Source: Liolophura sinensis
Taxonomy: Eukaryota > Mollusca > Polyplacophora > Chitonida > Chitonidae
Length of the DNA: 64,000 nucleotides
Assembly (NCBI RefSeq): GCF_032854445.1
Contig: NC_088297.1
Span: 25,530,915-25,594,914, forward strand
Reading direction: 5' to 3'
Shown here: one piece after another, positions 14,125-41,100 of the stretch
Numbering within the stretch: position 1 is the stretch's first letter
Layout: each line of letters begins with the position of its first letter
The notes under the pieces: model-generated
What the model was told of the DNA's origin: nothing
What the model saw: the letters and a program-made list of their open reading frames with translations, nothing else
Database searches by the model: none
Translations under genes and position numbers: made by a program

Positions 14125-17100
14125 ATTATTATTGTTATTATTATTTATATTTATTATATATCATCGATTGTCCTACCCTGCCGCACGCTATTGTCCATTA
14201 GTTTGTATGCACTGTTATATGGTTCGCTACATGATGGTGATGCTGTACATATGTGATTTGTACCTAGAACTGTCCTACGAGAGATATTCTGACACAAACG
14301 CCAATCTACTAGATCTTGACTTGCCTGTCCTTTAACGAAGCTTGATCACTGCACAATGTATTGTGTTCTTAATGTGTCCAAAATTAACAAGCCAAAGGCA
14401 TACAAAAAAACATATCTGGGACTACAAAACAGTTAACCTAGAAGAACTGAATAATGTACTAAAAAGTACTTCTTTTGACCTAATTATAGACATTTTCGAT
14501 TCCATCGACGATAAAGTCTATGCGTCAACCGAATTATTTCTTTCCCGTTGTGCCCAGACTATCCCAAACAAAACAGTCATAATAAGGCCAAGGGATAAGC
14601 CTTGGATGACTAATGACGTCCGACGTAAATTTCGAATTAGGGACAGATGGTTCAAAAAGTTTAAACGTACCAAGTCAGATGATGACAACTTTTATTTTAT
14701 TTTTTTGGCTAGTCGAGAAGCCAATGCGACAAAACACAATGCGATTAGGAGATACACCCACTCTATAAAATCGAAATTGTCCGACCCAAATGTTGACACG
14801 AAGACTTACTGGAAGCTAATGAAATCTGTCCTCGACTCTAAAGCAAGCCCCAAATACACCCTTGTTTTAGTTAACAGCAAAGTTATATCTGACGACATGG
14901 TCAAAGAAAGCGTATTTTGTAAATTTTTCGCCTCTATATCTGCAGTGGTTAAAAACCCACCCGATTTACCACAATTTACATGTTACTGACTCTCGCCTAA
15001 ATTTAGTTTAACCAAGTGAATCTGAAATTTTATTACTGTTAAAGCGCATAAAGGTTAAAAGAGCCTGTTAAAAAGATGTAGTATCTAACACATGTTCTAC
15101 CATAATATTCAGTCAGAAATAGTTGACAGCTAATCTCCCCGACATGTTCTACCATTATGTTCAGTCAGAAATAGTTAAAAGCTAATCTCCTCCACATGTG
15201 CTACCATTATGTTCAGTCAAATATAGTTAACACCTAATCTCCCCGACATGTTCTACCATTATGTTCAGTCAGAAATAGTTAACACCTAATCTCCCCGAAA
15301 TGTTCTACCATTATGTTCAGTCAGAAATAGTTAACAGCTAATCTCCCCGACATGTTCTACCATTATGTTCAGTCAAATATAGTTAACACCTAATCTCCCC
15401 GACATGTTCTACCATTATGTTCAGTCAGAAATAGTTAACACCTAATCTCCCCGACATGTTCTACCATTATGTTCAGTCAGAAATAGTTGACACCTAATCT
15501 CCCCGACATGTTCTACCATTATGTTCAGTCAGAAATAGTTAACAGCTAATCTCCCCGACATGTCCTACCATTATGTTCAGTCAGAAATAGTTGACAGCTA
15601 ATCTCCCCGACATGTTCTACCATTATGTTCAGTCAGAAATAGTTAACAGCTAATCTCCCCGACATGTTCTACCATTATGTTCAGTCAGAAATAGTTAACA
15701 GCTAATCTCCCCGACATGTTCTACCATTATGTTCAGTCAGAAATAGTTAACAGCTAATCTCCCCGGCATGTTCTACCATTATGTTCAGTCAGAAATAGTT
15801 GACACCTAATCTCACCGACATGTTCTACCATTATGTTCAGTCAGAAATAGTTAACAGCTAATCTCCCCGACATGTCCTACCATTATGTTCAGTCAGAAAT
15901 AGTTAACAGCTAATCTCCCCGACATGTTCTACCATTATGTTCAGTCAGAAATAGTTAACACCTAATCTCCCCGACATGTTCTACCATTATGTTCAGTCAG
16001 AAATAGTTAACAGCTAATCTCCTCCACATGTTCTACCATTATGCTCAGTCAGAAATAGTTAACACCTAATCTCCCGGACATGTTCTACCATTATGTTCAG
16101 TCAGAAATAGTTAACAGCTAATCTCCCCGACATGTTCTACCGTTATGTTCAGTCAGAAATAGTTAACAGCTAATCCCCCCGACATGTCCTACCGTTATGT
16201 TCAGTCAGAAATAGTTAACAGCTAATCTCCCCGGCACGTTCTACCATTATGTTCAGTCAGAAATAGTTAACAGCTAATCTCCCCGGCATGTTCTACTATT
16301 ATGTTCAGTCAGATATATTTAACAGCTAATCTCCCCGACATGTTCTACCATTATGTTCAGTCAGAAATAGTTAACAGCTAATCTCCCCGACATGTTCTAC
16401 CATTATGTTCAGTCAGAAATAGTTAACAGCTAATCTCCCCGACATGTTCTACCATTATGTTCAGTCAGAAATAGTTAACACCTAATCTCCCCGACATGTT
16501 CTACCATTATGTTCAGTCAGAAATAGTTAACAGCTAATCTCCCCGACATGTTCTACCGTTATGTTCAGTCAGAAATAGTTAACAGCTAATCCCCCCGACA
16601 TGTCCTACCGTTATGTTCAGTCAGAAATAGTTAACAGCTAATCTCCTCCACATGTTCTACCATTATGTTCAGTCAGAAATAGTTAACAGCTAATCTCCCC
16701 GACATGTTCAACCATTATGTTCAGTCAGAAATAGTTAACAGCTAATCTCCCCGACATGTTCTACCATTATGTTCAGTCAGAAATAGTTAACAGCTAATCT
16801 CCCCGACATGTTCTACCATTATGTTCAGTCAGAAATAGTTAACAGCTAATCTCCCCGGCATGTTCTACCATTGTGTTCAGTCAGAAATAGTTAACACCTA
16901 ATCTCCCCGGCATGTTCTACCATTATGTTCAGTCAGAAATAGTTAACACCTAATCTCCCCGGCATGTTCTACCATTATGTTCAGTCAGAAATAGTTAACA
17001 CCTAATCTCCCCGACATGTTCTACCATTATGTTCAGTCAGAAATAGTTAACAGCTAATCTCCCCGACATGTCCTACCATTATGTTCAGTCAGAAATAGTT

Positions 17101-20100
17101 AACAGCCAATCTCCCCGAAATGTTCTACCATTATGTTCAGTCAGAAATAGTTAACAGCTAATCTCCCCGGCATGTTCTACTATTATGTTCAGTCAGATAT
17201 ATTTAACAGCTAATCTCCCCGACATGTTCTACCATTATGTTCAGTCAGAAATAGCTAACAGCTAATCTCCCCGAAATGTTCTACCATTATGTTCAGTCAG
17301 AAATAGTTAACAGCTAATCTCCCCGGCATGTTCTACCATTATGTTCAGTCAGAAATAGTTAACACCTAATCTCCCCGGCATGTTCTACCATTATGTTCAG
17401 TCAGAAATAGTTAACACCTAATCTCCCCGACATGTTCTACCATTATGTTCAGTCAGAAATAGTTAACAGCTAATCTCCCCGACATGTCCTACCATTATGT
17501 TCAGTCAGAAATAGTTAACAGCCAATCTCCCCGGCATGTTCTACCATTATGTTCAGTCAGAAATAGTTAACACCTAATCTCCCCGGCATGTTCTACCATT
17601 ATGTTCAGTCAGAAATAGTTAACACCTAATCTCCCCGACATGTTCTACCATTATGTTCAGTCAGAAATAGTTAACAGCTTATCTCCCCGGCATGTTCTAC
17701 CATTATGTTCAGTCAGAAATAGTTAACACCTAATCTCCCCGACATGTTCTACCATTATGTTCAGTCAGAAATAGTTAACAGCTAATCTCCCCGGCATGTT
17801 CTACCATTATGTTCAGTCAGAAATAGTTAACAGCTAATCTCCCCGGCATGTTCTACCATTATGTTCAGTCAGAAATAGTTAACACCTAATCTCCCCGGCA
17901 TGTTCTACTATTATGTTCAGTCAGAAATACTTAACAGCTAATCTCCCCGACATGTTCTACCATTATGTTCAGTCAGAAATAGTTAAAAGCTAATCTCCCC
18001 GGCATGTTCTACCATTATGTTCAGTCAGAAATAGTTAACAGCTAATCTCCCCGGCATGTTCTACCATTATGTTCAGTCAGAAATAGTTAACACCTAATCT
18101 CCCCGGCATGTTCTACCATTATGTTCAGTCAGAAATAGTTAACAGCTAATCTCCCCGGCATGTTCTACCATTATGTTCAGTCAGAAATAGTTAACAGCTA
18201 ATCTCCTCCACATGTTCTACCATTATGTTCAGTCAGAAATAGTTAACAGCTAATCTCCCCGACATGTTCTACCATTATGTTCAGTCAGAAATAGTTAACA
18301 GCTAATCTCCTCTACATGTTCTACCATTATGTTCAGTCAGAAATAGTTAACAGCTAATCTCCTCCACATGTTCTACCATTATGTTCAGTCAGAAATAGTT
18401 AACACCTAATCTCCCCGACATGTTCTACCATTATGTTCAGTCAGATATATTTAACAGCTAATCTCCCCGACATGTTCTACCATTATGTTCAGTCAGAAAT
18501 AGTTAACACCTAATCTCCCCGGCATGTTCTACCATTATGTTCAATCAGAAATAGTAAACAGCTAATCTCCCCGACATGTTCTACCATTATGTTCAGTCAG
18601 AAATAGTTAACAGCTAATCTCCCCGACATGTTCTACCATTATGTTCAGTCAGAAATAGTTAACAGCTAATCTCCCCGACATGTTCTACCATTATGTTCAG
18701 TCAGAAATAGTTAACACCTAATCTCCCCGGCATGTTCTACCATTATGTTCAATCAGAAATAGTTAACAGCTAATCTCCCCGACATGTTCTACCATTATGT
18801 TCAGTCAGAAATAGTTAACAGCTAATCTCCCCGACATGTTCTACCATTATGTTCAGTCAGAAATAGTTAACAGCTAATCTCCCCGGCATGTTCTACCATT
18901 ATGTTCAGTCAGAAATAGTTAACAGCTAATCTCCCCGGCATGTTCTACCATTATGTTCAGTCAGAAATAGTTAACACCTAATCTCCCCGGCATGTTCTAC
19001 CATTATGTTCAGTCAGAAATAGTTAACAGCTAATCTCCTCCACATGTTCTACGATTATGTTCAGTCAGAAATAGTTAACAGCTAATCTCCTCCACATGTT
19101 CTACGATTATGTTCAGTCAGAAATAGTTAACAGCTAATCTCCCCGGCATGTTCTACCATTATGTTCAGTCAGAAATAGTTAAAAGCTAATCTCCCCGGCA
19201 TGTTCTACCATTATGCTCAGTCAGAAATAGTTAACAGCTAATCTCCCCGACATGTTCTACCATTATGTTCAGTCAGAAATAGTTAAAAACTAATCTCCCC
19301 GACATGCTCTACCATTACGTTCAGTCAGAAATAGTTAACAGCTAATCTCCTCCACATGTTCTACCATTACGTTCAGTCAGAAATAGTTAACACCTAATCT
19401 CCCCGAAATGTTCTACCATTATGTTCAGTCAGAAATAGTTAACAGCTAAACTCCCCGAAATTTTCTACCATTATGTTCAGTCAGAAATAGTTAACAGCTA
19501 ATCTCCTCCACATGTTCTACCATTATGTTCAGTCAGAAATAGTTAACAGCTAATCTCCTCCACATGTTCTACGATTATGTTCAGTCAGAAATAGTTAACA
19601 GCTAATCTCCTCCACATGTGCTACCATTATGTTCAGTCAGAAATAGTTAACAGCTAATCTCCCCGGCATGTTCTACCATTATGTTCAGTCAGAAATAGTT
19701 AACAGCTAAACTCCCCGAAATTTTCTACCATTATCTTCAGTCAGAAATAGTTAACAGCTAATCTCCTCCACATGTTCTACCATTATGTTCAGTCAGAAAT
19801 AGTTAACAGCTAATCTCCTCCACATGTTCTACGATTATGTTCAGTCAGAAATAGTTAACAGCTAATCTCCCCGACATGTTCTACCATTATGTTCAGTCAG
19901 AAATAGTTAACAGCTAATCTCCTCCACATGTTCTACCATTATGTTCAGTCAGATATATTTAACAGCTAATCTCCCCGGCATGTTCTACCATTATGTTCAG
20001 TCAGAAATAGTTAACAGCTAATCTCCTCTACATGTTCTACCATTATGCTCAGTCAGAAATAGTTAACAGCTAATCTCCCCGACATGTTCTACCATTATGT

Positions 20101-23100
20101 TCAGTCAGAAATAGTTAACACCTAATCTCCCCGACATGTTCTACCATTATGTTCAGTCAGAAATAGTTAACAGCTAATCTCCCCGGCATGTCCTACCATT
20201 ATGTTCAGTCAGAAATAGTTAACAGCTAATCTCCTCCACATGTTCTACCATTATGTTCAGTCAGAAATAGTTAACAGCTAATCTCCTCCACATGTTCTAC
20301 GATTATGTTCAGTCAGAAATAGTTAACAGCTAATCTCCTCCACATGTTCTACTATTATGTTCAGTCAGAAATAGTTAACAGCTAATCTCCCCGGCACGTT
20401 CTACCATTATGTTCAGTCAGAAATAGTTAACAGCTAATCTCCCCGGCATGTTCTACCATTATGTTCAGTCAGAAATAGTTAACAGCTAATCTCCCCAGCA
20501 TGTTCTACCATTATGTTCAGTCAGAAATAGTTAACACCTAATCTCCCCGGCATGTTCTACTATTATGTTCAGTCAGAAATACTTAACAGCTAATCTCCCC
20601 GACATGTTCTACCATTATGTTCAGTCAGAAATAGTTAAAAGCTAATCTCCCCGGCATGTTCTACCATTATGTTCAGTCAGAAATAGTTAACAGCTAATCT
20701 CCCCGGCATGTTCTACCATTATGTTCAGTCAGAAATAGTTAACACCTAATCTCCCCGGCATGTTCTACCATTATGTTCAGTCAGAAATAGTTAACAGCTA
20801 ATCTCCCCGGCATGTTCTACCATTATGTTCAGTCAGAAATAGTTAACAGCTAATCTCCTCCACATGTTCTACCATTATGTTCAGTCAGAAATAGTTAACA
20901 GCTAATCTCCCCGACATGTTCTACCATTATGTTCAGTCAGAAATAGTTAACAGCTAATCTCCCCGACATGTTCTACCATTATGTTCAGTCAGAAATAGTT
21001 AACAGCTAATCTCCCCGGCATGTTCTACCATTATGTTCAGTCAGAAATAGTTAACAGCTAATCTCCCCGGCATGTTCTACCATTATGTTCAGTCAGAAAT
21101 AGTTAAAAGCTAATCTCCCCGGCATGTTCTACCATTATGCTCAGTCAGAAATAGTTAACAGCTAATCTCCCCGACATGTTCTACCATTATGTTCAGTCAG
21201 AAATAGTTAAAAACTAATCTCCCCGACATGCTCTACCATTACGTTCAGTCAGAAATAGTTAACAGCTAATCTCCTCCACATGTTCTACCATTATGTTCAG
21301 TCAGAAGTAGTTAACAGCTAATCTCCCCGAAATGTTCTACCATTATGTTCAGTCAGAAATAGTTAACAGCTAAACTCCCCGAAATTTTCTACCATTATGT
21401 TCAGTCAGAAATAGTTAACAGCTAATCTCCTCCACATGTTCTACCATTATGTTCAGTCAGAAATAGTTAACAGCTAATCTCCTCCACATGTTCTACGATT
21501 ATGTTCAGTCAGAAATAGTTAACAGCTAATCTCCTCCACATGTGCTACCATTATGTTCAGTCAGAAATAGTTAACAGCTAATCTCCCCGACATGTTCTAC
21601 CATTATGTTCAGTCAGAAATAGTTAACAGCTAAACTCCCCGAAATTTTCTACCATTATGTTCAGTCAGAAATAGTTAACAGCTAATCTCCTCCACATGTT
21701 CTACCATTATGTTCAGTCAGAAATAGTTAACAGCTAATCTCCTCCACATGTTCTACGATTATGTTCAGTCAGAAATAGTTAACAGCTAATCTCCCCGACA
21801 TGTTCTACCATTATGTTCAGTCAGAAATAGTTAACAGCTAATCTCCTCCACATGTTCTACCATTATGTTCAGTCAGATATATTTAACAGCTAATCTCCCC
21901 GGCATGTTCTACCATTATGTTCAGTCAGAAATAGTTAACAGCTAATCTCCTCTACATGTTCTACCATTATGCTCAGTCAGAAATAGTTAACAGCTAATCT
22001 CCCCGACATGTTCTACCATTATGTTCAGTCAGAAATAGTTAACACCTAATCTCCCCGACATGTTCTACCATTATGTTCAGTCAGAAATAGTTAACAGCTA
22101 ATCTCCCCGGCATGTTCTACCATTATGTTCAGTCAGAAATAGTTAACAGCTAATCTCCTCCACATGTTCTACCATTATGTTCAGTCAGAAATAGTTAACA
22201 GCTAATCTCCTCCACATGTTCTACGATTATGTTCAGTCAGAAATAGTTAACAGCTAATCTCCTCCACATGTTCTACTATTATGTTCAGTCAGAAATAGTT
22301 AACAGCTAATCTCCCCGGCACGTTCTACCATTATGTTCAGTCAGAAATAGTTAACAGCTAATCTCCCCGGCATGTTCTACCATTATGTTCAGTCAGAAAT
22401 AGTTAACAGCTAATCTCCCCGGCATGTTCTACCATTATGTTCAGTCAGAAATAGTTAACACCTAATCTCCCCGGCATGTTCTACTATTATGTTCAGTCAG
22501 AAATACTTAACAGCTAATCTCCCCGACATGTTCTACCATTATGTTCAGTCAGAAATAGTTAAAAGCTAATCTCCCCGGCATTTTCTACCATTATGTTCAG
22601 TCAGAAATAGTTAACAGCTAATCTCCCCGGCATGTTCTACCATTATGTTCAGTCAGAAATAGTTAACACCTAATCTCCCCGGCATGTTCTACCATTATGT
22701 TCAGTCAGAAATAGTTAACAGCTAATCTCCCCGGCATGTTCTACCATTATGTTCAGTCAGAAATAGTTAACAGCTAATCTCCTCCACATGTTCTACCATT
22801 ATGTTCAGTCAGAAATAGTTAACAGCTAATCTCCCCGACATGTTCTACCATTATGTTCAGTCAGAAATAGTTAACAGCTAATCTCCCCGACATGTTCTAC
22901 CATTATGTTCAGTCAGAAATAGTTAACAGCTAATCTCCCCGGCATGTTCTACTATTATGTTCAGTCAGAAATAGTTAACACCTAATCTCCCCGGCATGTT
23001 CTACCATTATGTTCAATCAGAAATAGTTAACAGCTAATCTCCCCGACATGTTCTACCATTATGTTCAGTCAGAAATAGTTAACAGCTAATCTCCTCCACA

Positions 23101-26100
23101 TGTTCTACCATTATGTTCAGTCAGAAATAGTTAACAGCTAATCTCCCCGACATGTTCTACCATTATGTTCAGTCAGAAATAGTTAACAGCTAATCTCCCC
23201 GGCATGTTCTACCATTATGTTCAGTCAGAAATAGTTAACACCTAATCTCCCCGGCATGTTCTACCATGATGTTCAGTCAGAAATAGTTAACACCTAATCT
23301 CCCCGGCATGTTCTACCATGATGTTCAGTCAGAAATAGTTAACAGCTAATCTCCTCCACATGTTCTACTATTATGTTCAGTCAGAAATAGTTAACAGCTA
23401 ATCTCCCCGACATGTTCTACGATTATGTTCAGTCAGAAATAGTTAACAGCTAATCTCCTCCACATGTTCTACCATTATTTTCAGTCAGAAATAGTTAACA
23501 CCTAATCTCCCCGACATTTTCTACCATTATGTTCAGTCAGAAATAGTTAACAGCTAATCACCCCGACATGTTCTACCATTATGTTCAGTCAGAAATAGTT
23601 AACAGCTAATCTCCCCGACATGTTCTACCATTATGTTCAGTCAGAAATAGTTAACACCTAATCTCCCCGGCATGTTCTACCATTATGTTCAGTCAGAAAT
23701 AGTTAACAGCTAATCTCCCCGACATGTTCTACCATTATGTTCAGTCAGAAATAGTTAACAGCTAATCTCCCCGGCATGTTCTACCATTATGTTCAGTCAG
23801 AAATAGTTAACACCTAATCTCCCCGGCATGTTCTACCATTATGTTCAGTCAGAAATAGTTAACAACTAATCTCCCCGGCATGTTCTACCATTATGTTCAG
23901 TCAGAAATAGTTAAAAACTAATCTCCCCGACATGTTCTACCATTATGCTCAGTCAGAAATAGTTAACAGCTAATCTCCCCGACATGTTCTACCATTATGT
24001 TCAGTCAGAAATAGTTAACAGCTAATCTCCCCGGCATGTTCTACCATTATGTTCAGTCAGAAATAGTTAACAGCTAATCTCCCCGGCATGTTCTACTATT
24101 ATGTTCAGTCAGATATATTTAACAGCTAATCTCCCCGACATGTTCTACCATTATGTTCAGTCAGAAATAGTTAACAGCTAATCTCCCCGACATGTTCTAC
24201 CATTATGTTCAGTCAGAAATAGTTAACACCTAATCTCCCCGGCATGTTCTACCATTATGTTCAGTCAGAAATATTTAACAACTAATCTCCCCGGCATGTT
24301 CTACCATTATGTTCAGTCAGAAATAGTTAAAAACTAATCTCCCCGAAATGTTCTACCATTACGTTCAGTCAGAAATAGTTAACAGCTAATCTCCCCGACA
24401 TGTTCTACCATTACGTTCAGTCAGAAATAGTTGACAGCTAATCTCCCCGACATGTTCTACCATTATGTTCAGTCAGAAATAGTTAACAGCTAATCTCCCC
24501 GACATGTTCTACCATTATGTTCAGTCAGATATATTTAACAGCTAATCTCCCCGACATGTTCTACCATTATGTTCAGTCAGAAATAGTTAACACCTAATCT
24601 CCCCGACATGTTCTACCATTATGTTCAGTCAGAAATAGTTAACAGCTAATCTCCCCGGCATGTTCTACCATTATGTTCAGTCAGAAATAGTTAAAAACTA
24701 ATCTTCCCGAAATGTTCTACCATTATGTTCAGTCAGAAATAGTTAACAGCTAATCTACCCGACATGTTCTACCATTATGTTCAATCAGAAATAGTTAACA
24801 GCTAATCTCCCCGACATGTTCTACCATTATGTTCAGTCAGAAATAGTTAACAGCTAATCTCCCCGGCATGTTCTACCATTATGTTCAGTCAGAAATAGTT
24901 AACAGCTAATCTCCCCGACATGTTCTACCATTATGTTCAATCAGAAATAGTTAACAGCTAATCTCCCCGACATGTTCTACCATTATGTTCAGTCAGAAAT
25001 AGTTAACAGCTAATCTCCCCGACATGTTCTACCATTATGTTCAGTCAGAAATAGTTAAAAACTAATCTCCCCGAAATGTTCTACCATTATGTTCAGTCAG
25101 AAATAGTTAACAGCTAATCTCCCCGACATGTTCTACCATTATGTTCAATCAGAAATAGTTAACAGCTAATCTCCCCGACATGTTCTACCATTATGTTCAG
25201 TCAGAAATAGTTAACAGCTAATCTCCCCGACATGTTCTACCATTATGTTCAGTCAGAAATAGTTAACAGCTAATCTCCCCGGCATGTTCTACCATTATGT
25301 TCAGTCAGAAATAGTTAACAGCTAATCTCCCCGACATGTTCTACCATTATGTTCAGTCAGAAATAGTTGACAGCTAATCTCCCCGACATGTTCTACCATT
25401 ATGTTCAGTCAGATATATTTAACAGCTAATCTCCCCGACATGTTCTACCATTATGTTCAGTCAGAAATAGTTAACAGCTAATCTCCCCGACATGTTCTAC
25501 CATTATGTTCAGTCAGAAATAGTTAACACCTAATCTCCCCGGCATGTTCTACCATTATGTTCAATCAGAAATAGTTAACAGCTAATCTCCCCGACATGTT
25601 CTACCATTATGTTCAGTCAGAAATAGTTAACAGCTAATCTCCCCGACATGTTCTACCATTATGTTCAGTCAGAAATAGTTAACAGCTAATCTCCCCGGCA
25701 TGTTCTACCATTATGTTCAGTCAGAAATAGTTAACAGCTAATCTCCCCGACATGTTCTACCATTATGTTCAGTCAGAAATAGTTAACAGCTAATCTCCCC
25801 GGCATGTTCTACCATTATGTTCAATCAGAAATAGTTAACAGCTAATCTCCCCGACATGTTCTACCGTTATGTTCAGTCAGAAATAGTTAACAGCTAATCT
25901 CCCCGGCATGTTCTACCATTATGTTCAGTCAGAAATAGTTAACACCTAATCTCCCCCGGCATGTTCTACCGTTATGTTCAGTCAGAAATAGTTAACAGCT
26001 AATCTCCTCCACATGTTCTACCATTATGTTCAGTCAGAAATAGTTAACAGCTAATCTCCTCCACATGTTCTACGATTATGTTCAGTCAGAAATAGTTAAC

Positions 26101-29100
26101 AGCTAATCTCCCCGGCATGTTCTACCATTATGTTCAGTCAGAAATAGTTAAAAGCTGATCTCCCCGACATGTTCTACCATTATGTTCAGTCAGAAATAGT
26201 TAAAAACTAATCTCCCCGACATGCTCTACCATTACGTTCAGTCAGAAATAGTTAACAGCTAATCTCCTCCACATGTTCTACCATTATGTTCAGTCAGAAG
26301 TAGTTAACAGCTAATCTCCCCGGCATGTTCTACCATTATGTTCAGTCAGAAATAGTTAACAGCTAATCTCCTCCACATGTGCTACCATTATGTTCAGTCA
26401 GAAATAGTTAACAGCTAATCTCCCCGGCATGTTCTACCATTATGTTCAGTCAGAAATAGTTAACAGCTAAACTCCCCGAAATTTTCTACCATTATGTTCA
26501 GTCAGAAATAGTTAACAGCTAATCTCCTCCACATGTTCTACCATTATGTTCAGTCAGAAATAGTTAACAGCTAATCTCCTCCACATGTTCTACCATTATG
26601 TTCAGTCAGAAATAGTTAACAGCTAATCTCCCCGGCATGTTCTACCATTATGTTCAGTCAGAAATAGTTAACAGCTAATCTCCTCCACATGTTCTACCAT
26701 TATGTTCAGTCAGAAATAGTTAACAGCTAATCTCCTCCACATGTTCTACGATTATGTTCAGTCAGAAATAGTTAACAGCTAATCTCCTCCACATGTTCTA
26801 CTATTATGTTCAGTCAGAAATAGTTAACAGCTAATCTCCCCGGCACGTTCTACCATTATGTTCAGTCAGAAATAGTTAACAGCTAATCTCCCCGGCATGT
26901 TCTACCATTATGTTCAGTCAGAAATAGTTAACAGCTAATCTCCTCCACATGTTCTACCATTATGTTCAGTCAGAAATAGTTAACAGCTAATCTCCTCCAC
27001 ATGTTCTACCATTATGTTCAGTCAGAAATAGTTAACAGCTAATCTCCCCGAAATGTTCTACCATTATGTTCAGTCAGAAATAGTTAACACCTAATCTCCC
27101 CGACATGTTCTACCATTATGTTAAGTCAGAAATAGTTAACAGCTAATCTCCTCCACATGTTCTACCATTATGTTCAGTCAGAAATAGTTAAAAGCTAATC
27201 TCCCCGGCATGTTCTACCATTATGTTCAGTCAGAAATAGTTAACAGCTAATCTCCCCGAAATGTTCTACCGTTATGTTAAGTCAGAAATAGTTAACAGCT
27301 AATCTCCTCCACATGTTCTACCATTATGTTCAGTCAGAAATAGTTAAAAGCTAATCTCCCCGGCATGTTCTACCATTATGTTCAGTCAGAAATAGTTAAC
27401 AGCTAATCTCCCCGAAATGTTCTACCATTATGTTCAGTCAGAAATAGTTAACAGCTAATCTCCCCGAAATGTTCTACCATTATGTTCAGTCAGAAATAGT
27501 TAACAGCTAATCTCCCCGACATGTTCTACCATTATGTTCAGTCAGAAATAGTTAACAGCTAATCTCCCCGGCATGTTCTACCATTATGTTCAGTCAGAAA
27601 TAGTTAACAGCTAATCTCCCCGACATGTTCTACCATTATGTTCAGTCAGAAATAGTTAACAGCTAATCTTCCCGAAATGTTCTACCATTATGTTCAGTCA
27701 GAAATAGTTAACAGCTAATCTCCTCCACATGTTCTACTATTATGTTCAGTCAGAAATAGTTAAAAGCTAATCTCCCCGAAATGTTCTACCGTTATGTTCA
27801 GTCAGAAATAGTTAACAGCTAATCTCCCCGACATGTTTTACTAATATGTTCAGTCAGAAATAGTTAACAGCTAATCTCCCCGACATGTTCTACCATTATG
27901 TTCAGTCAGAAATAGTTAAAAACTAAACTCCCCGACATGTTCTACCATTATGTTCAGTCAGAAATAGTTAACAGCTAATCTCCCCGACATGTTCTACCAT
28001 TATGTTCAGTCAGAAATAGTTAACAGCTAATCTCCCCGGCATGTTCTACCATTATGTTCAATCAGAAATAGTTAACAGCTAATCTCCCCGACATGTTCTA
28101 CCATTATGTTCAGTCAGATATATTTAACAGCTAATCTCCCCGAAATGTTCTACCGTTATGTTCAGTCAGAAATAGTTGACAGCAAATCTCCCCGGCATGT
28201 TCTACCATTATGTTCAGTCAGAAATAGTTAAAAACTAATCTTCCCGAAATGTTCTACCATTATGTTCAGTCAGAAATAGTAAACAGCTAATCTCCTCCAC
28301 ATGTTCTACTATTATGTTCAGTCAGAAATAGTTAACAGCTAATCTCCCAGAAATGTTCTACCATTATGTTCAGTCAGAAATAGTTAACAGCTAATCTCCC
28401 CGACATGTTCTACCATGATGTTCAGTCAGAAATAGTTAACACCTAATCTCCTCCACATGTTCTACCATTATGCTCAGTCAGAAATAGTTAACAGCTAATC
28501 TCCTCCACATGTTTTACTAATATGTTCAGTCAGAAATAGTTAACACCTAATCTCCCCGACATGTTCTACCATTATGTTCAGTCAGAAATAGTTAAAAACT
28601 AATCTTCCCGAAATGTTCTACCATTATGTTCAGTCAGAAATAGTTAACAGCTAATCTTCCCGAAATGTTCTACCATTATGTTCAGTCAGAAATAGTTAAC
28701 ACCTAATCTCCCCGGCATGTTCTACCATTATGTTCAGTCAGAAATAGTTAACAGCTAATCTCCCCGGCATGTTCTACCATTATGTTCAGTCAGAAATAGT
28801 TAACAGGTAATCTCCCCGAAATGTTCTACCGTTATGTTAAGTCAGAAATAGTTAACAGCTAATCTCCTCCACATGTTCTACCATTATGTTCAGTCAGAAA
28901 TAGTTAAAAGCTAATCTCCCCGGCATGTTCTACCATTATGTTCAGTCAGAAATAGTTAACAGCTAATCTCCCCGAAATGTTCTACCATTATGTTCAGTCA
29001 GAAATAGTTAACAGCTAATCTCCCCGAAATGTTCCACCATTATGTTCAGTCAGAAATAGTTAACAGCTAATCTTCCCGAAATGTTCTACCATTATGTTCA

Positions 29101-32100
29101 GTCAGAAATAGTTAACACCTAATCTCCCCGACATGTTCTACCATTATGTTCAGTCAGAAATAGTTAACACCTAATCTCCCCGACATGTTCTACCATTATG
29201 TTCAGTCAGAAATAGTTAACACCTAATCTCCCCGAAATGTTCTACCATTATGTTCAGTCAGAAATAGTTAAAAACTAATCTTCCCGAAATGTTCTACCAT
29301 TATGTTCAGTCAGAAATAGTTAACAGCTAATCTCCTCCACATGTTCTACTATTATGTTCAGTCAGAAATAGTTAAAAGCTAATCTCCCCGAAATGTTCTA
29401 CCGTTATGTTCAGTCAGAAATAGTTAACAGCTAATCTCCCCGACATGTTTTACTAATATGTTCAGTCAGAAATAGTTAACAGCTAATCTCCCCGACATGT
29501 TCTACCATTATGTTCAGTCAGAAATAGTTAAAAACTAAACTCCCCGACATGTTCTACCATTATGTTCAGTCAGAAATAGTTAACAGCTAATCTCCCCGAC
29601 ATGTTCTACCATTATGTTCAGTCAGAAATAGTTAACAGCTAATCTCCCCGGCATGTTCTACCATTATGTTCAATCAGAAATAGTTAACAGCTAATCTCCC
29701 CGACATGTTCTACCATTATGTTCAGTCAGATATATTTAACAGCTAATCTCCCCGAAATGTTCTACCGTTATGTTCAGTCAGAAATAGTTGACAGCAAATC
29801 TCCCCGGCATGTTCTACCATTATGTTCAGTCAGAAATAGTTAAAAACTAATCTTCCCGAAATGTTCTACCATTATGTTCAGTCAGAAATAGTAAACAGCT
29901 AATCTCCTCCACATGTTCTACTATTATGTTCAGTCAGAAATAGTTAACAGCTAATCTCCCAGAAATGTTCTACCATTATGTTCAGTCAGAAATAGTTAAC
30001 AGCTAATCTCCCCGACATGTTCTACCATGATGTTCAGTCAGAAATAGTTAACACCTAATCTCCTCCACATGTTCTACCATTATGCTCAGTCAGAAATAGT
30101 TAACAGCTAATCTCCTCCACATGTTTTACTAATATGTTCAGTCAGAAATAGTTAACACCTAATCTCCCCGACATGTTCTACCATTATGTTCAGTCAGAAA
30201 TAGTTAAAAACTAATCTTCCCGAAATGTTCTACCATTATGTTCAGTCAGAAATAGTTAACAGCTAATCTTCCCGAAATGTTCTACCATTATGTTCAGTCA
30301 GAAATAGTTAACACCTAATCTCCCCGGCATGTTCTACCATTATGTTCAGTCAGAAATAGTTAACAGCTAATCTTCCCGAAATGTTCTACCATTATGTTCA
30401 GTCAGAAATAGTTAACACCTAATCTCCCCGGCATGTTCTACCATTATGTTCAGTCAGAAATAGTTAACACCTAATCTCCCCGACATGTTCTACCATTATG
30501 TTCAGTCAGAAATAGTTAACAGCTAATCTCCCCGGCATGTTCTACCATTATGTTCAGTCAGAAATAGTTAACAGCTAATCTTCCCGAAATGTTCTACCAT
30601 TATGTTCAGTCAGAAATAGTTAACAGCTAATCTCCCCGACATGTTCTACCATTATGTTCAGTCAGAAATAGTTAACAGCTAATCTCCTCCACATGTTCTA
30701 CCATTATGTTCAGTCAGAAATAGTTAAAAACTAATCTCCCCGACATGTTCTACCATTATGTTCAGTCAGAAATAGTTAACAGCTAATCTCCCCGACATGT
30801 TCTACCATTATGTTCAGTCAGAAATAGTTAACAGCTAATCTCCTCCACATGTTCTACCATTATGTTCAGTCAGAAATAGTTAACACCTAATCTCCCCGAC
30901 ATGTTCTACCATTATGTTCAGTCAGAAATAGTTAACAGCTAATCTCCCCGACATGTTCTACCATTATGTTCAGTCAGAAATAGTTAACACCTAATCTCCC
31001 CGAAATGTTCTACCATTATGTTCAGTCAGAAATAGTTAACAGCTAATCTCCCCGACATGTTCTACCATTATGTTCAGTCAGAAATAGTTAACAGCTAATC
31101 TCCTCCACATGTTCTACCATTATGCTCAGTCAGAAATAGTTAACAGCTAATCTCCTCCACATGTTCTACTATTATGTTTAGTCAGAAATAGTTAAAAGCT
31201 AATCTCCCCGAAATGTTCTACCATTATGTTCAGTCAGAAATAGTTAACAGCTAATCTCCTTCACATGTTCTACTAATATGTTCAGTCAGAAATAGTTAAC
31301 AGCTAATCTCCCCGACATGTTCTACCATTATGTTCAGTCAGAAATAATTAACAGCTAATCTCCTCCACATGTGCTACCATTATGTTCAGTCAGAAATAGT
31401 TAACACCTAATCTCCCCGGCATGTTCTACTATTATGTTCAGTCAGAAATAGTTAACAGCTAATCTCCCCGACATGTTCTACCATTATGTTCAGTCAGAAA
31501 TAGTTGACAGCTAATCTCCCCGACATGTTCTACCATTATGTTCAGTCAGAAATAGTTAACAGCTAATCTCCCCGACATGTTCTACCATTATGTTCAGTCA
31601 GAAATAGTTAACAGCTAATCTCCCCGACATGTTCTACCATTATGTTCAGTCAGAAATAGTTAACAGCTAATCTCCCCGACATGTTCTACCATTATGTTCA
31701 GTCAGAAATAGTTAACAGCTAATCTCCCCGACATGTTCTACCATTATGTTCAGTCAGAAATAGTTAACAGCTAATCTCCCCGACATGTTCTACCATTATG
31801 TTCAGTCAGAAATAGTTAACAGCTAATCTCCCCGACATGTTCTACCATTATGTTCAGTCAGAAATAGTTGACAGCTAATCTCCCCGACATGTTCTACCAT
31901 TATGTTCAGTCAGAAATAGTTAACAGCTAATCTCCCCGGCATGTTCTACCATTATGTTCAGTCAGAAATAGTTAACACCTAATCTCCCCGGCATGTTCTA
32001 CCATTATGTTCAGTCAGAAATAGTTAACAGCTAATCTCCCCGATATGTGCTACTATTATTTTCAGTCAGAAATAGTTAACAGCTAATCTCCTCCACATGT

Positions 32101-35100
32101 TCTACTATTATGTTTAGTCAGAAATAGTTAACACCTAATCTCCCCGGCATGTTCTACCATTATGTTCAGTCAGATATATTTAACAGCTAATCTCCCCGAC
32201 ATGTTCTACTATTATGTTCAGTCAGAAATAGTTAACAGCTAATCTCCCCGGCATGTTCTACCATTATGTTCAGTCAGAAATGGAGATGGGAACCATTCGT
32301 ACACGCTTAGAAACTGTAATGACCGTCCCCTCATTAAATGTACGCACAATGTCGTCCCCATTTTTCCCACAAACGACAAAGGACTGGAACGACTTACCCT
32401 CTACGATTAGAAATTTATCGTTTTACAACCTACGCTTTCTAGCCCCAAAATCCGAAAAAAAAATGAAATATTCTTTATAATTTTTTTTAACAACGATATG
32501 TCTATTTTGCGTTGTAGAATATTGATGGGACTGGGCGCTCTTGACGCCCATGTGTTTAAGTATAATATTATCCCAGATCGGTCCAGTAACTATTGTCCAT
32601 GTCCTAACGAAACAGCAAATCATTTCCTAATAGAGTGCCCACACTTTGCCGCTCCTAGGAACTACATGCTTGTAGACAAGGCAAATATCATGTGTTCAGG
32701 AATTCACGAATCTTTTGGCTGATTCACACACTTTCAAATACCTATTTAAAGTTTTATTTTTTGGATCAAAAGATGTGGAACTCTTAGATAACATTAACTT
32801 ATTTCAAACCACCCACAATTACCTCCTGACCAACAACAGATTCAGTCAATAATACAAACAATGTTCGCAATTGGTATTACATTTTACTCAGTATGCTAGT
32901 ATACGTGTGTGTACAGGTACATTTACTTATGTACACAATACTATTTATTTATTCGAAACTAAGGCTTAACCATTTTATATGAAATCGATCGTAATTTTTA
33001 TTTTGAATATCTGTAAGGCTTAATTCTTCCGCTTATTTTACTTTCTTACTATATAATTGTAAGTAAGCAGATATTATTTTCAAAATACCAATTTTCAAAT
33101 GTTGTAATTAAATGTAAGTAATCTTGTGGAAATCCCCACGTGGCCACTGGCTGTAAAATAAAGCACTGAATTAAATTTAATTACTGTTAAACACCAACAA
33201 TGTAATTTATGTAAATTTCTGGTACAACATCGGAGTTTTCGTTCATTAAGTCTTGTTCAACAAAATACGGCTTTCTTTACAAAGAAAGTGAGAGAAGATT
33301 AGCGGGACAAATTCCTTTTGGCATTTTTCCGTCAGTTAAATAACGAATTAAATGATCTGGTTCCAATATAAGATTATGCACTTTTATGTCTTTAAATGCG
33401 CCCAAAGAAAACATATAACATAAATACAAATGTAATATATCGAGAATTAACGAACGTGCAAAGTGTTTTTACTGTACTGTCTAACACAAGAACTTTACAT
33501 TTTACATAGTTGTAATGAAACTATATTTTACATCTGTGTTATATTAAAAAGTTTATTGATGTGTTCGAAATTAATTTTCCTAGACGACGGTTGTCAGACA
33601 ACAGGAGTCCTCCAGCTGTCTTACAAACAAAGTTCTCTCAATCAAAGAACTGGCGGCGAAATAACGAGATATTGGGGATGGTGTTGTCTTCCTGCAATCT
33701 GTCGTTTGTAATTCCACTTCACTTTCAGCTAGAGATTGTATAAGAATCCAGGGGTGTTGCATGTATACACGTGCCCGTGGGTTATGGCTGCACAAGTATA
33801 CTGGGGATAGGGGACTCGTGAACGTCAATCTTGTAGCCCTTATAACGAACAGTGTTTATTTGGTAAAGAGACATGTTCGCCCCTGCCGATCTGCCATGGG
33901 GTGCAATGGGATACAGCGGCTCAGAAAAATACCGTTACAAATTTTTAGCGCCCTTTTTGAGACTAGAATACGGGTGTTGGGTTTGACGCTTATTCGATAT
34001 CGAGGACATACGGCAATTAACCGTTTTACTCGCCCCCCACAGGCTTTAGTCACTCATACACGGCGGTGTGTAAATGACACGAAGGTTAACTTCAAAACTC
34101 TACTTCAAGGCGACATAAGTCAAAGAGGTATGCTTAGTTGACGTTCTCAATTTACGTATGCCTGCGATAATGTCCAGAAGTACTTCTCGGAATATCGACC
34201 ACTCCCTGTTACTTTCCCTCGTTCACTGCCGCAGGCGAGTGAAGTGACCGGAAGCGCGCTGTCGCGAATATATTTGGTATGGAATATGCCACTCACTGGG
34301 AACATCAATTAGCGGTGTGCAAGCCAGACAGGCGACCCCTCCAAACACGTGCAGTGCCAACATTACTTTCTTCCTGCCGAATCTGTCCATGGTGAAAATG
34401 GTGATAAAAAAGGACGGGATTTCCACCAGTCCAGATAGGAAGTGGTTAATGTAAACACTTCCGCCCAAGCTTCCAGATCCTAAGGACAAGCCGTAGTACA
34501 CCATGGAAATAACAAACCTGCGACAGAAAAAACAGACCGCGTTATCTCAACGTTGCACACAAAAGTCAAGCCTAGATTTACCACAAGCCTACAGACAACG
34601 TTAAAATATAGCCGTCTCATGTGGCAAGTGTTGCAGGAAATAAATGACCATTGCAGTTAAAAGGAAGAAACGACCATAATTCGACGATGATGCGGAGATA
34701 ATAGTCATCGTGTTACCGTGCTTCATGATCAGTTTGCGTTGGAGATATTATTTCACGACAATGCGGATTGAAGTTAGGATCGAAGCTATATGACTTCATA
34801 ATACTGCGCAAGAAAGCGCAATACGAAGAGTTAAGACTTCATGATATTGCGCATGGAATGTCGATAGGAAGACATATACGCCTAATTCTTTATAATAATC
34901 CACAGGGTTTAGAAAACATCTATATAACCATTTATGATAATGTGACATGGGTCTTGAGAAGACGACATTTACGCCAAGCTCTGTATATGTACAAAATGTA
35001 ATAACTTACTGCCAATTTTGTCCAGAATTTTTAAAATCTGTCTGTAGTTTACAACATATACTAGCTTTAATAAGTGCAGTATGAATATCTACCAATGAAA

Positions 35101-38100: not shown

Positions 38101-41100
38101 CAGGGACCGGGCTTCGGAGATGCTTAGTCCACCAGCAGGGACCGGGCTTCGGGGATGCTTAGTCCACCAGCAGGGACCGGGCTTCGGGGATGCTTAGTCC
38201 ACCAGCAGGTACCGGGCTTCGGGGATGCTTAGTCCATCAGCAGGTACCAGGCTTCGGGGATGCTTAGTCCACTAGCGGGGACCGGGCTTCGGGGATGCTT
38301 AGTCCACTAGCAGGGACCGAGCTTCGGGGATGCTTAGTCCACCAGCAGGTACCGGACTTCAGGGATGCTTAGTCCACCAGCAGGTACCAGGCTTCGGTGA
38401 TGCTTAGTCCACCAGCAGAATTCCGGTTTAGATAGGGTAATACTAAGTAAGACTATAGCATGGAGACACACAGATACGGCCTCTTGCCAGATTATACCTC
38501 AGTTATGATCTTATTCAACTGTTCATGTAATGTTAAACGAATAAACAAATAAACAGCCTTACCACCAATAAGACAAGAACAACACAACAGGGAGAGCTTG
38601 GACCAGCTGGAGATGTATGTGGCTTCTAACAAAGTAGGCGAAGCCGGCCTGTATCATGATGCCAACTGCGAACCAACCCTGGTAGAAAACACCGGGACTC
38701 ATCCTCTTGGTAGGCCCGATTGTCTCCATTACTGTGACACAAACCAAACAAGTCTGACACAGAAATGGTGAGGATGTGGTTGGTGGGTCTATGAGTCGTA
38801 GATATTCGTATACTGGCCCTCTACCTAACTGGACGTTCCAGGACAATAATCACAAGGCCAATTCCCAAAACAACGTCTAACACAAACCACTAAAGAACTA
38901 AGAAAGTATTCAAACTACAAAATAAGGGTGCAATCATGTAGAGTGAATCAGTCAACAGTGACCAATTCAAATCATGTAAAAAATATCCATTGTCGATTTA
39001 TCTCGGTTGCACTTCGATTGCAACGGTCCGTATATCCAACGTGGCAATCTAATTCAACACGACAGATATACAGCACCTAGCCCCGGGTAAAAGCATGAAG
39101 CACAGCTCGGTTCATATTGACTTACAAAAGAATTATACTCATTGTAAAACAAGAGGCTCTCTTCAAATTAAATATGGAAGGAGTGTCCGGAATCTCTGGC
39201 GCTCTGTTTCATATTGTGTCTAATTACGCTTCACCCGGGTCTAGGGTATGTTTACTGTTCCACTCACCTATGACAAATCTCACTCACCCATGACAAACCC
39301 ACTCACCCATGACAAACCCCACTCCTCCATGACAAACCACACTCCTCCATGACAAACCACACTCATCCATGACAAACCCCACTCACCTATGACAAACCCC
39401 ACTCACCCATGACAAACACCACTCACCTATGACAAATTCCACAGCCACCCATGACAAACCCCACTCACAGTTAATATTAGGAGCCCCACCCACCTATGAC
39501 AAACTCCACTCAGCCATGACAAACACCACTCACCTATAACAAACCACAGTCACCTATAACAAACCACACTCAGCCAAGAAAAATGCCACTCACCTATGAC
39601 AAACACCACTCACTTATAACAAACCCACTCACCTGTGACGAACACCACTCACCTATGACAAACATCACTCACCTGTGACAAACACCACTCACCTATGACA
39701 AACTCCACTCACCTAAGATAAACCCCATTCATCTATGACAAACAACTCTCACCTCTGACAAACTCCACTCACCCATGACAAACCCACTCACCCATGACAA
39801 ACCCACAGCCACCTATCACAAACCCCACTCACCTGTGACAAAAATCACACTCACCTATGACAAACAGCACTCACCTATGACAAACTCCACCCACCTAGGA
39901 CAAACTCCACACTCACCCATGACAAACCCCATTCATCTATGACAAACCCCAGACTCACCTATGACAAACCCCACTCACCTGTGACAACGTCACACTCACC
40001 TATGACAAACAGCACTCACCTGTGACAAACAGCACTCACCTATGACAAACCCGATTCACCTATGAAAGCCCCACTCACCCATGACAAATTCCACTCATTT
40101 AAGACAAACCGAACTCACCTATGACAAACTCCACTCACCTACGACAAACCGCTCTCACCCATGAAAAAAACCCACTCACCTTCGACAAATCCCACTCACC
40201 TATGACAAACTCCACACTCACACATGACAAACCCCACTCACATATGGCAAATCCCACCCCTCTATGACCAACCCCACTCGCCTATGACAAACTCCACTCG
40301 CCTATGACAAACCCCACTCACCTATGACAAACCCCACAGTGAAACCTCCACCTGAGCATGAGCCGACGACAAAGCGGAGGAGGACAAAGCTGATGTACTC
40401 CGGAGCGAAGGCGGCGGCCACGCCAGAGACAATCAGCAGGAGCAGAGAAGACAATAGTGTTCTGTGGCGGCCGAATCTGTTTAAAAAAGAGATATAAACC
40501 ATTTCTAGCAAAAAAAAAGGGGAAAAGAGAAGATATTAAACAAAGTGACCATAGGTTTAATGACCAGATATTTTAGCTGCATCAAGTCAAGTTATCGAAT
40601 TGTAAGTACCTGGAACTCGGAAAGTCGTAAACTTGTAAGCCACAATTCTTAAAGGAGAAGAAAACATAAATATTATGCCAAAATCAGATGAAAGAGCATC
40701 ATCAGATGTCAAAACTTATTTGCAAATATGACCTTTAATATTTTTTTGGATTTTTTTTTTCAACAGATAAGGGTATTTGAAAATATTTTTCTATGTTCGG
40801 TATTTGGGACCAACTTTTGGTATTAATCGTTGTTGCATAATAGTGTTCTAAATAAAGATGTGATGCTTGTCTAACAAATTTATTTGAATGTAAATTTGTT
40901 GTTCATATCGAAAGATATTCATTTAACCTAAATTATGATAATATTTATGAACACATGAATAATATAAATGTGATCCAAATTGAGGTTTAATACATTTGCT
41001 AGCTGAAAAGAACAAATTCTAGTGCAAAAATATTTATCAAACCTGTGTTACATCCTCATTTATGACATTATTAAACAGAGAATATAAATACGAAAAGGTG

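Follow-up and report, generated by a model that had tools for sequence, protein, structure and literature searches.

The window, the whole stretch of 64,000 nucleotides from the chiton Liolophura sinensis analysed here, carries on its minus strand two exons of a gene that is, by homology, an SLC22-type transporter gene. A minisatellite runs across the junction of exon 3 and intron 3 and lines up copies of the splice donor behind the exon. The features are given in the order in which the gene is read.

40322..40476, minus strand: exon 3 of the SLC22-type (organic cation transporter-like) gene, placed by homology and boundaries
39260..40337, minus strand: 20-bp minisatellite across the exon 3/intron 3 junction (TRF: 53.2 copies, 78% matches)
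40322-40337, minus strand: last 16 nt of exon 3, which form the first repeat copy and are coding
38732..40321, minus strand: intron 3, 1590 nt, of which the array makes up about 67%; 3' end ...TTTGTGTCACAG
40316..40321, minus strand: authentic intron 3 donor GTGAGT (ATAG/GTGAGT), which keeps the frame into exon 4
40302..40304, minus strand: TAG closing unit 1, in frame when a later donor is used
40200..40301, minus strand: units 2-6, degraded in the donor core or at -1
40199 (first intron base), minus strand: unit 7, the first downstream donor that matches the authentic one in strength
38559..38731, minus strand: exon 4, starting VMETIGPTKRMSPGVFYQGW...; its low end is merely the end of the listed open frame

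When position 40322 is joined to 38731, the result is an uninterrupted SLC22 protein (...FTVGFVI/VMETIGP...). Exons 3 and 4 together match OCT1/SLC22A1 chains with E values from 1.9e-17 (the best, OCT1) to 2.5e-16, and the junction region aligns without gaps. Exon 3 alone matches MFS_1 at an E value of 2.1e-5, under the curated cut-off. Elsewhere in the window, a 52-bp unit is repeated about 330 times (94% matches) in a 17-kb array at 15090-32281, and the open frame at 32232-32722 resembles the terminal part of a reverse transcriptase from a retrotransposon.

The repeat at the exon 3/intron 3 junction

The first-pass annotation had counted about 53 repeats of a 20-bp unit, and the TRF figure given above bears this out. 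Alignment to the unit GTGAGTGGGGTTTGTCATAG, started from the junction, gives 53 units, the final one partial, and AG/GT is kept in many, though not all, of these copies. The unit is made of 16 exon bases and 4 intron bases (GTGA), and its positions 5-20 equal the final 16 bases of exon 3. The proposed tie between the unit and the exon 3 junction thus stands; the further statement that the repeat begins exactly at the junction does not, as it starts 16 nt within the exon (40337). Taking the junction as the starting point of the unit is a choice of register.

An estimate of about 30 potential 5' splice sites was right. There are 33 GTGAGT sites 3' of the authentic donor, 29 of them with G at -1; sorted by context, 22 read AG/GTGAGT, 14 ATAG/GTGAGT and 5 CAG/GTGAGT. 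The 1062-nt array contains the word AGGTGAGT 22 times, whereas 200 dinucleotide shuffles gave 0.29 on average and never more than 3. On the sense strand, 431 G stand against 76 C. The units that follow the first are degraded: GC replaces GT in units 2 and 3, unit 4 reads AGGGGT, and units 5 and 6 carry T at -1. A site for recursive (ratchet) splicing was defined as an acceptor with a pyrimidine tract directly abutting a donor. In the aligned units, the junction TTTGTCATAG/GTGAGT has AG/GT and a short T run only.

It is unlikely that the array is an assembly artefact, because the HiFi reads of this assembly, with a reported mean length of 8,347 bp (PMC11068029), are long enough to cross the 1.08-kb array. 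The species name used in the assembly paper, Liolophura japonica, has since been corrected to L. sinensis (PMC12441733). An amphioxus origin, considered at first on account of the repeat type, was rejected: the mitochondrial contig carries the tRNA run M-C-Y-W-Q-G-E and has a gene order typical of chitons and other molluscs. A search for the GFP family gave no match, a result that does not by itself demonstrate absence.

Origin of the array and comparison with known boundary repeats

There is good support for the claim that a tandem duplication spanning the splice junction gave rise to the array: the final 16 exon bases match the unit, they lie in sequence that aligns without gaps to OCT1, and the array stops after the first 4 bp (GTGG) of one more copy. 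The array derives from the exon, because these 16 bases code for the transporter and because all six other SLC22-like matches in the genome have the exon end at this position (as judged by eye; for example TTAG/GTAAGT and ATTG/GTAAGT).

The duplication has left a clear footprint in the form of a 4-bp word at each end of the array. GTGG stands in the exon at 40337-40334 and again in the last copy at 39263-39260, beyond which the sequence diverges. Two GTGG words lie 20 bp apart at the junction, one exonic and the other at intron positions +5 to +8. The coincidence of the TRF start and end with GTGG...GTGG points to slippage between these words. In the sequence of events that we propose, a 20-bp segment (16 exon bases and GTGA) was first tandemly duplicated, probably via such slippage, and ordinary minisatellite turnover would then have expanded it to about 53 copies.

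A search of the genome with the exon 3 peptide finds seven places, the window itself included. One of the others, L008 (G000:C7:555492), also has an array that begins across the homologous exon end, with 10.6 copies of a 66-bp unit at locus positions 1629-2327. This unit differs from the 20-bp one and has a long open frame, with 22 residues per unit. Since the units differ, the two arrays were presumably born independently. Only three downstream sites in L008 roughly equal its authentic donor in strength, and two of these three stay open in frame. At the five remaining SLC22-like places, no array lies across the exon end. A single near-match at C7:25092504, with no surrounding array and no SLC22-like frame by eye, was put down to chance.

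Boundary repeats have been described in amphioxus as 'mirages', in Adh3, the globin genes BflGb6 and BflGb9, and troponin C, with similar repeats in PGBD5; regular splicing is reported to be undisturbed by them, and their length to vary between haplotypes (PMC3087553, PMC3902484). Like the chiton array, the mirages in these accounts repeat an exon/intron boundary in tandem, and AG/GT signals are present in many of the copies. The units reported measure about 150-160 bp in the amphioxus globins and 10-72 bp in Adh3, compared with 20 bp in the chiton, and BflGb6 has 6 and 3 copies compared with 53. The mirages are cephalochordate and the chiton belongs to another phylum, but the taxon tells where the name was first applied and is not part of the definition of the repeat. 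The chiton array adds a mollusc to the cephalochordates in which mirages were described. It differs from them in that each downstream GTGAGT leads to a stop.

Two further systems touch on this one. First, minisatellites with units of about 30 bp are reported at exon-intron boundaries of human segmental-duplication genes, where they can alter splicing (PMC2812944). That account, backed by transcripts, interprets them as generating new introns, whereas the position of the chiton intron is common to other SLC22 copies. Second, introns can be gained by a tandem duplication that copies AG/GT, as discussed in PMC3087553. The first step is the same, but the chiton array lengthens an existing intron, and no new intron is evident. 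A search of the open-licence literature for chiton tandem repeats, splice sites and introns together found none; none of the papers on such repeats among the matches listed is about chitons, and a search of the same literature for competing 5' splice sites found none.

Donor choice in intron 3

The reading frame sets the first donor apart from all those behind it. Unit 1 closes with a TAG in frame, so that every one of the 33 downstream GTGAGT donors brings a premature stop within the part of the intron that would be retained, and the protein therefore needs the first donor. Frame and homology together suggest that this donor is most likely the one used. The spliceosome would most likely pick the first, exon-attached donor despite the many donor-bearing copies that follow; transcripts spliced from later copies would end at the TAG of unit 1 and would probably be removed by nonsense-mediated decay. 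The cost of the ladder would at most be a leak. We consider it probable that the array, like the mirages, is a boundary minisatellite behind a first donor that is in use, and that it is a tolerated passenger and not an evolved regulator.

Pairing with U1 was expressed as an RNA duplex energy in free register, which is not a splice-site model. A U1 gene in this genome (L001) carries the canonical 5' end, ATACTTACCTGG. The authentic donor pairs with U1 at -12.3 kcal/mol, and 21 of the 194 downstream GT sites pair as strongly or more so. Because units 2-6 are degraded, the nearest donor of equal strength lies 122 nt from the authentic one. U1 snRNA has 41 matches in the genome (40 over the cut-off), most of them clustered on C10 around 30033968-30140539 at a spacing of about 2 kb, with others on C627, C6 and C7.

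The degradation of units 2-6 could reflect selection against decoys close to the exon. Given that 22 of 52 units have AG/GTGAGT, five consecutive downstream failures have a chance of about 0.064, and we do not claim selection as the cause of this decay. Conservation across the array is 0.89 at the donor positions and 0.86 elsewhere (p 0.59), as drift would give. Since the donor positions vary about as much as the others, we see no mark of selection either for or against them. That the array may compete for donor choice or buffer it, as the first-pass annotation proposed, stays a hypothesis.

A minisatellite with multiple splice donor sites was reportedly described by Turri et al. in 1995 in human IFI6 (6-16/G1P3). 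The unit of the IFI6 minisatellite is 12 bp long and in frame, and in a minisatellite of this type downstream donors would be expected to give readable proteins. Two downstream repeats of IFI6 are reported to be used as donors, with three mRNA species (PMC4526556). The likeness to the chiton array lies in a minisatellite that supplies repeated splice donors. The difference is that the 20-bp chiton unit breaks the frame, and that its downstream donors are not predicted to give readable proteins (33/33 GTGAGT stop).

The chiton ladder might nevertheless act in the manner of IFI6, with several donors of the array in use and the share of premature-stop transcripts setting the level of the transporter. 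Such use would fit the 21 downstream sites that pair with U1 no weaker than the real donor, the canonical 5' end of the genome's U1, and the report that IFI6 repeats serve as donors (PMC4526556). We think it unlikely. With a unit that is not a multiple of three and a stop behind every later GTGAGT, alternative proteins would not be made; the five nearest downstream units are weak; and the donor positions lack special conservation.

The dense, strong U1 matches directly behind the exon could also be taken as a landing strip at which no splicing occurs, where bound U1 snRNPs would aid transcription, block early polyadenylation or strengthen the first donor. The sense strand of intron 3 was searched for AATAAA and ATTAAA, and neither is present. 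The donor core shows no special conservation, and at five of the seven SLC22-like places no array crosses the exon end. These observations make a landing strip very improbable, and a tolerated repeat behind a working first donor remains our preferred account of intron 3.

Donor ladders elsewhere in the genome

For a survey of the genome, a ladder was defined as three perfect AGGTGAGT or AGGTAAGT words, with loci listed on C1 and part of C2. For AGGTGAGT, 19 of the 22 loci on C1 were taken (two irregular ones and one duplicate were left out), together with one listed on C2. For AGGTAAGT, all 11 loci on C1 were taken, and C2 contributed two of its six listed loci, the other four having alike units. 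Dropping L034 as a near-copy of L024 left 32 cases. The controls were all 17 listed loci of the reversed AGGTGAGT only.

Frames of at least 20 aa were open into the first ladder word in 25 of the 32 cases and 12 of the 17 controls, and these frames were tested against Pfam (one of three frames for L039; for L041, also at an edge corrected by eye, where no Pfam match was found). Support was set at an E value of 0.01 or better. Six cases match above the curated cut-off: L015 (ankyrin), L020 (Fe-hydrogenase-like), L030 (EGF), L039 (GH31), L045 (SID-1) and L047 (Smad MH2). Two match below it, L016 (HEAT, 0.0032) and L031 (EGF, 0.0041). A phmmer search of solved structures, run on cases only, matched L016 to 'Helicase-like protein' chains at E 3.9e-11, which we take to be of the Mot1 type; this search supports one counted case, L016, that is also weakly matched in Pfam. 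The same search gave no match for L041, L027, L033 or L046, which were not counted as homology-supported. A cyclotide match of L018 (E 0.021) was taken as chance. None of the 17 reversed-word controls matched Pfam at 0.05.

Homology thus supports an exon at the ladder start in 8 of 32 cases and 0 of 17 controls (p 0.023), or in 6 of 32 when only matches above the cut-off are counted (p 0.065). The AGGTGAGT cases alone give 5 of 19 (p 0.031), and open frames are longer in cases than in controls (p 0.032, with short frames treated equally). The case-control test favours donor words by design, because these words occur in real donors. What it shows is that several ladders are placed on what are, by homology, real exons; it does not imply that junctions are hot spots.

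These numbers bear on another account of the array, in which an ordinary minisatellite overlaps an exon end by chance, junctions are not prone to arrays, and selection does no more than halt growth into the exon. In its favour, 52% of the window is covered by TRF rows, in a genome rich in minisatellites. Nor do we claim that ladders are in special excess at donors: C1 has 22 ladder loci versus 11 for the reversed word, but the single word itself occurs 24497 versus 18845 times, and the first excess is not clearly above the second (p 0.16). Raw match counts (676 v 245 for AGGTGAGT, 340 v 223 for AGGTAAGT) are inflated by long arrays. The homology-supported exons at ladder starts (8/32 versus 0/17, or 6/32 above the cut-off) speak against chance placement, with part of the former difference owed to the presence of the word in real donors. 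We give chance placement very little credence indeed. It is close to our preferred explanation, a boundary minisatellite that is tolerated behind a first donor in use, and differs from it only by denying any tendency of junctions to form arrays.

The consequences of downstream donors vary among the other ladders. Rivals were counted if they were at most 0.5 kcal weaker than the authentic donor and lay within 1200 nt or up to the end of the locus, with L020 excluded since it was anchored on an internal copy. L047 (G000:C2:22306381-22308481) has a donor ladder with a 31-bp unit at the end of a Smad-type MH2 exon, and all seven rivals lead to stops. Stops follow from 8 of 9 rivals in L015, 11 of 14 in L016, 7 of 7 in L030 and 3 of 5 in L031, and from 1 of 7 in L039 and 0 of 2 in L045. 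Over these seven homology-supported ladders combined, 37 of 51 rivals lead to stops. In three ladders that homology does not support, stops follow from 11 of 11 rivals (L027), 12 of 13 (L033) and 6 of 6 (L041). The first comparable rival lies 21-42 nt downstream in L015, L016, L031, L039, L045 and L047.

The open frames that follow rivals in L039 (6 of 7), L045 (2 of 2) and the SLC22 paralogue L008 (2 of 3) argue against a general stop rule, and longer proteins could be made from these three ladders. Normal protein from the genes with frame-breaking ladders would require that the first donor prevail over equal downstream rivals. Tentatively, and with less confidence than we place in our reading of intron 3, donor ladders may form a recurrent class in the chiton, some of them at conserved genes, with several donors of roughly the authentic strength in the next few hundred bases. 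Most of their rivals would ruin the protein, a strict first-donor rule would follow if the protein is normal, and the ladder might even be of help by loading U1.

Work on the choice between equal 5' splice sites generally relies on minigenes that hold a few such sites. In the chiton, dozens of near-identical donors stand in a row in several genes of one animal, with units that break the frame or do not, which makes a rule of splice-site choice testable. If such a class exists, its ladders would allow the first-donor rule to be measured in nature. For this species, Illumina RNA reads have been published for the digestive gland, foot, gill, gonad and heart (PMC11068029) and would show which copy is used.

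Finally, contig C632 is a single mitochondrial copy of 15,209 bp. Contig G000:C99 has seven COX1 matches about 15.5 kb apart, which probably reflect a concatemer in which the assembly joined mitochondrial genomes head to tail.
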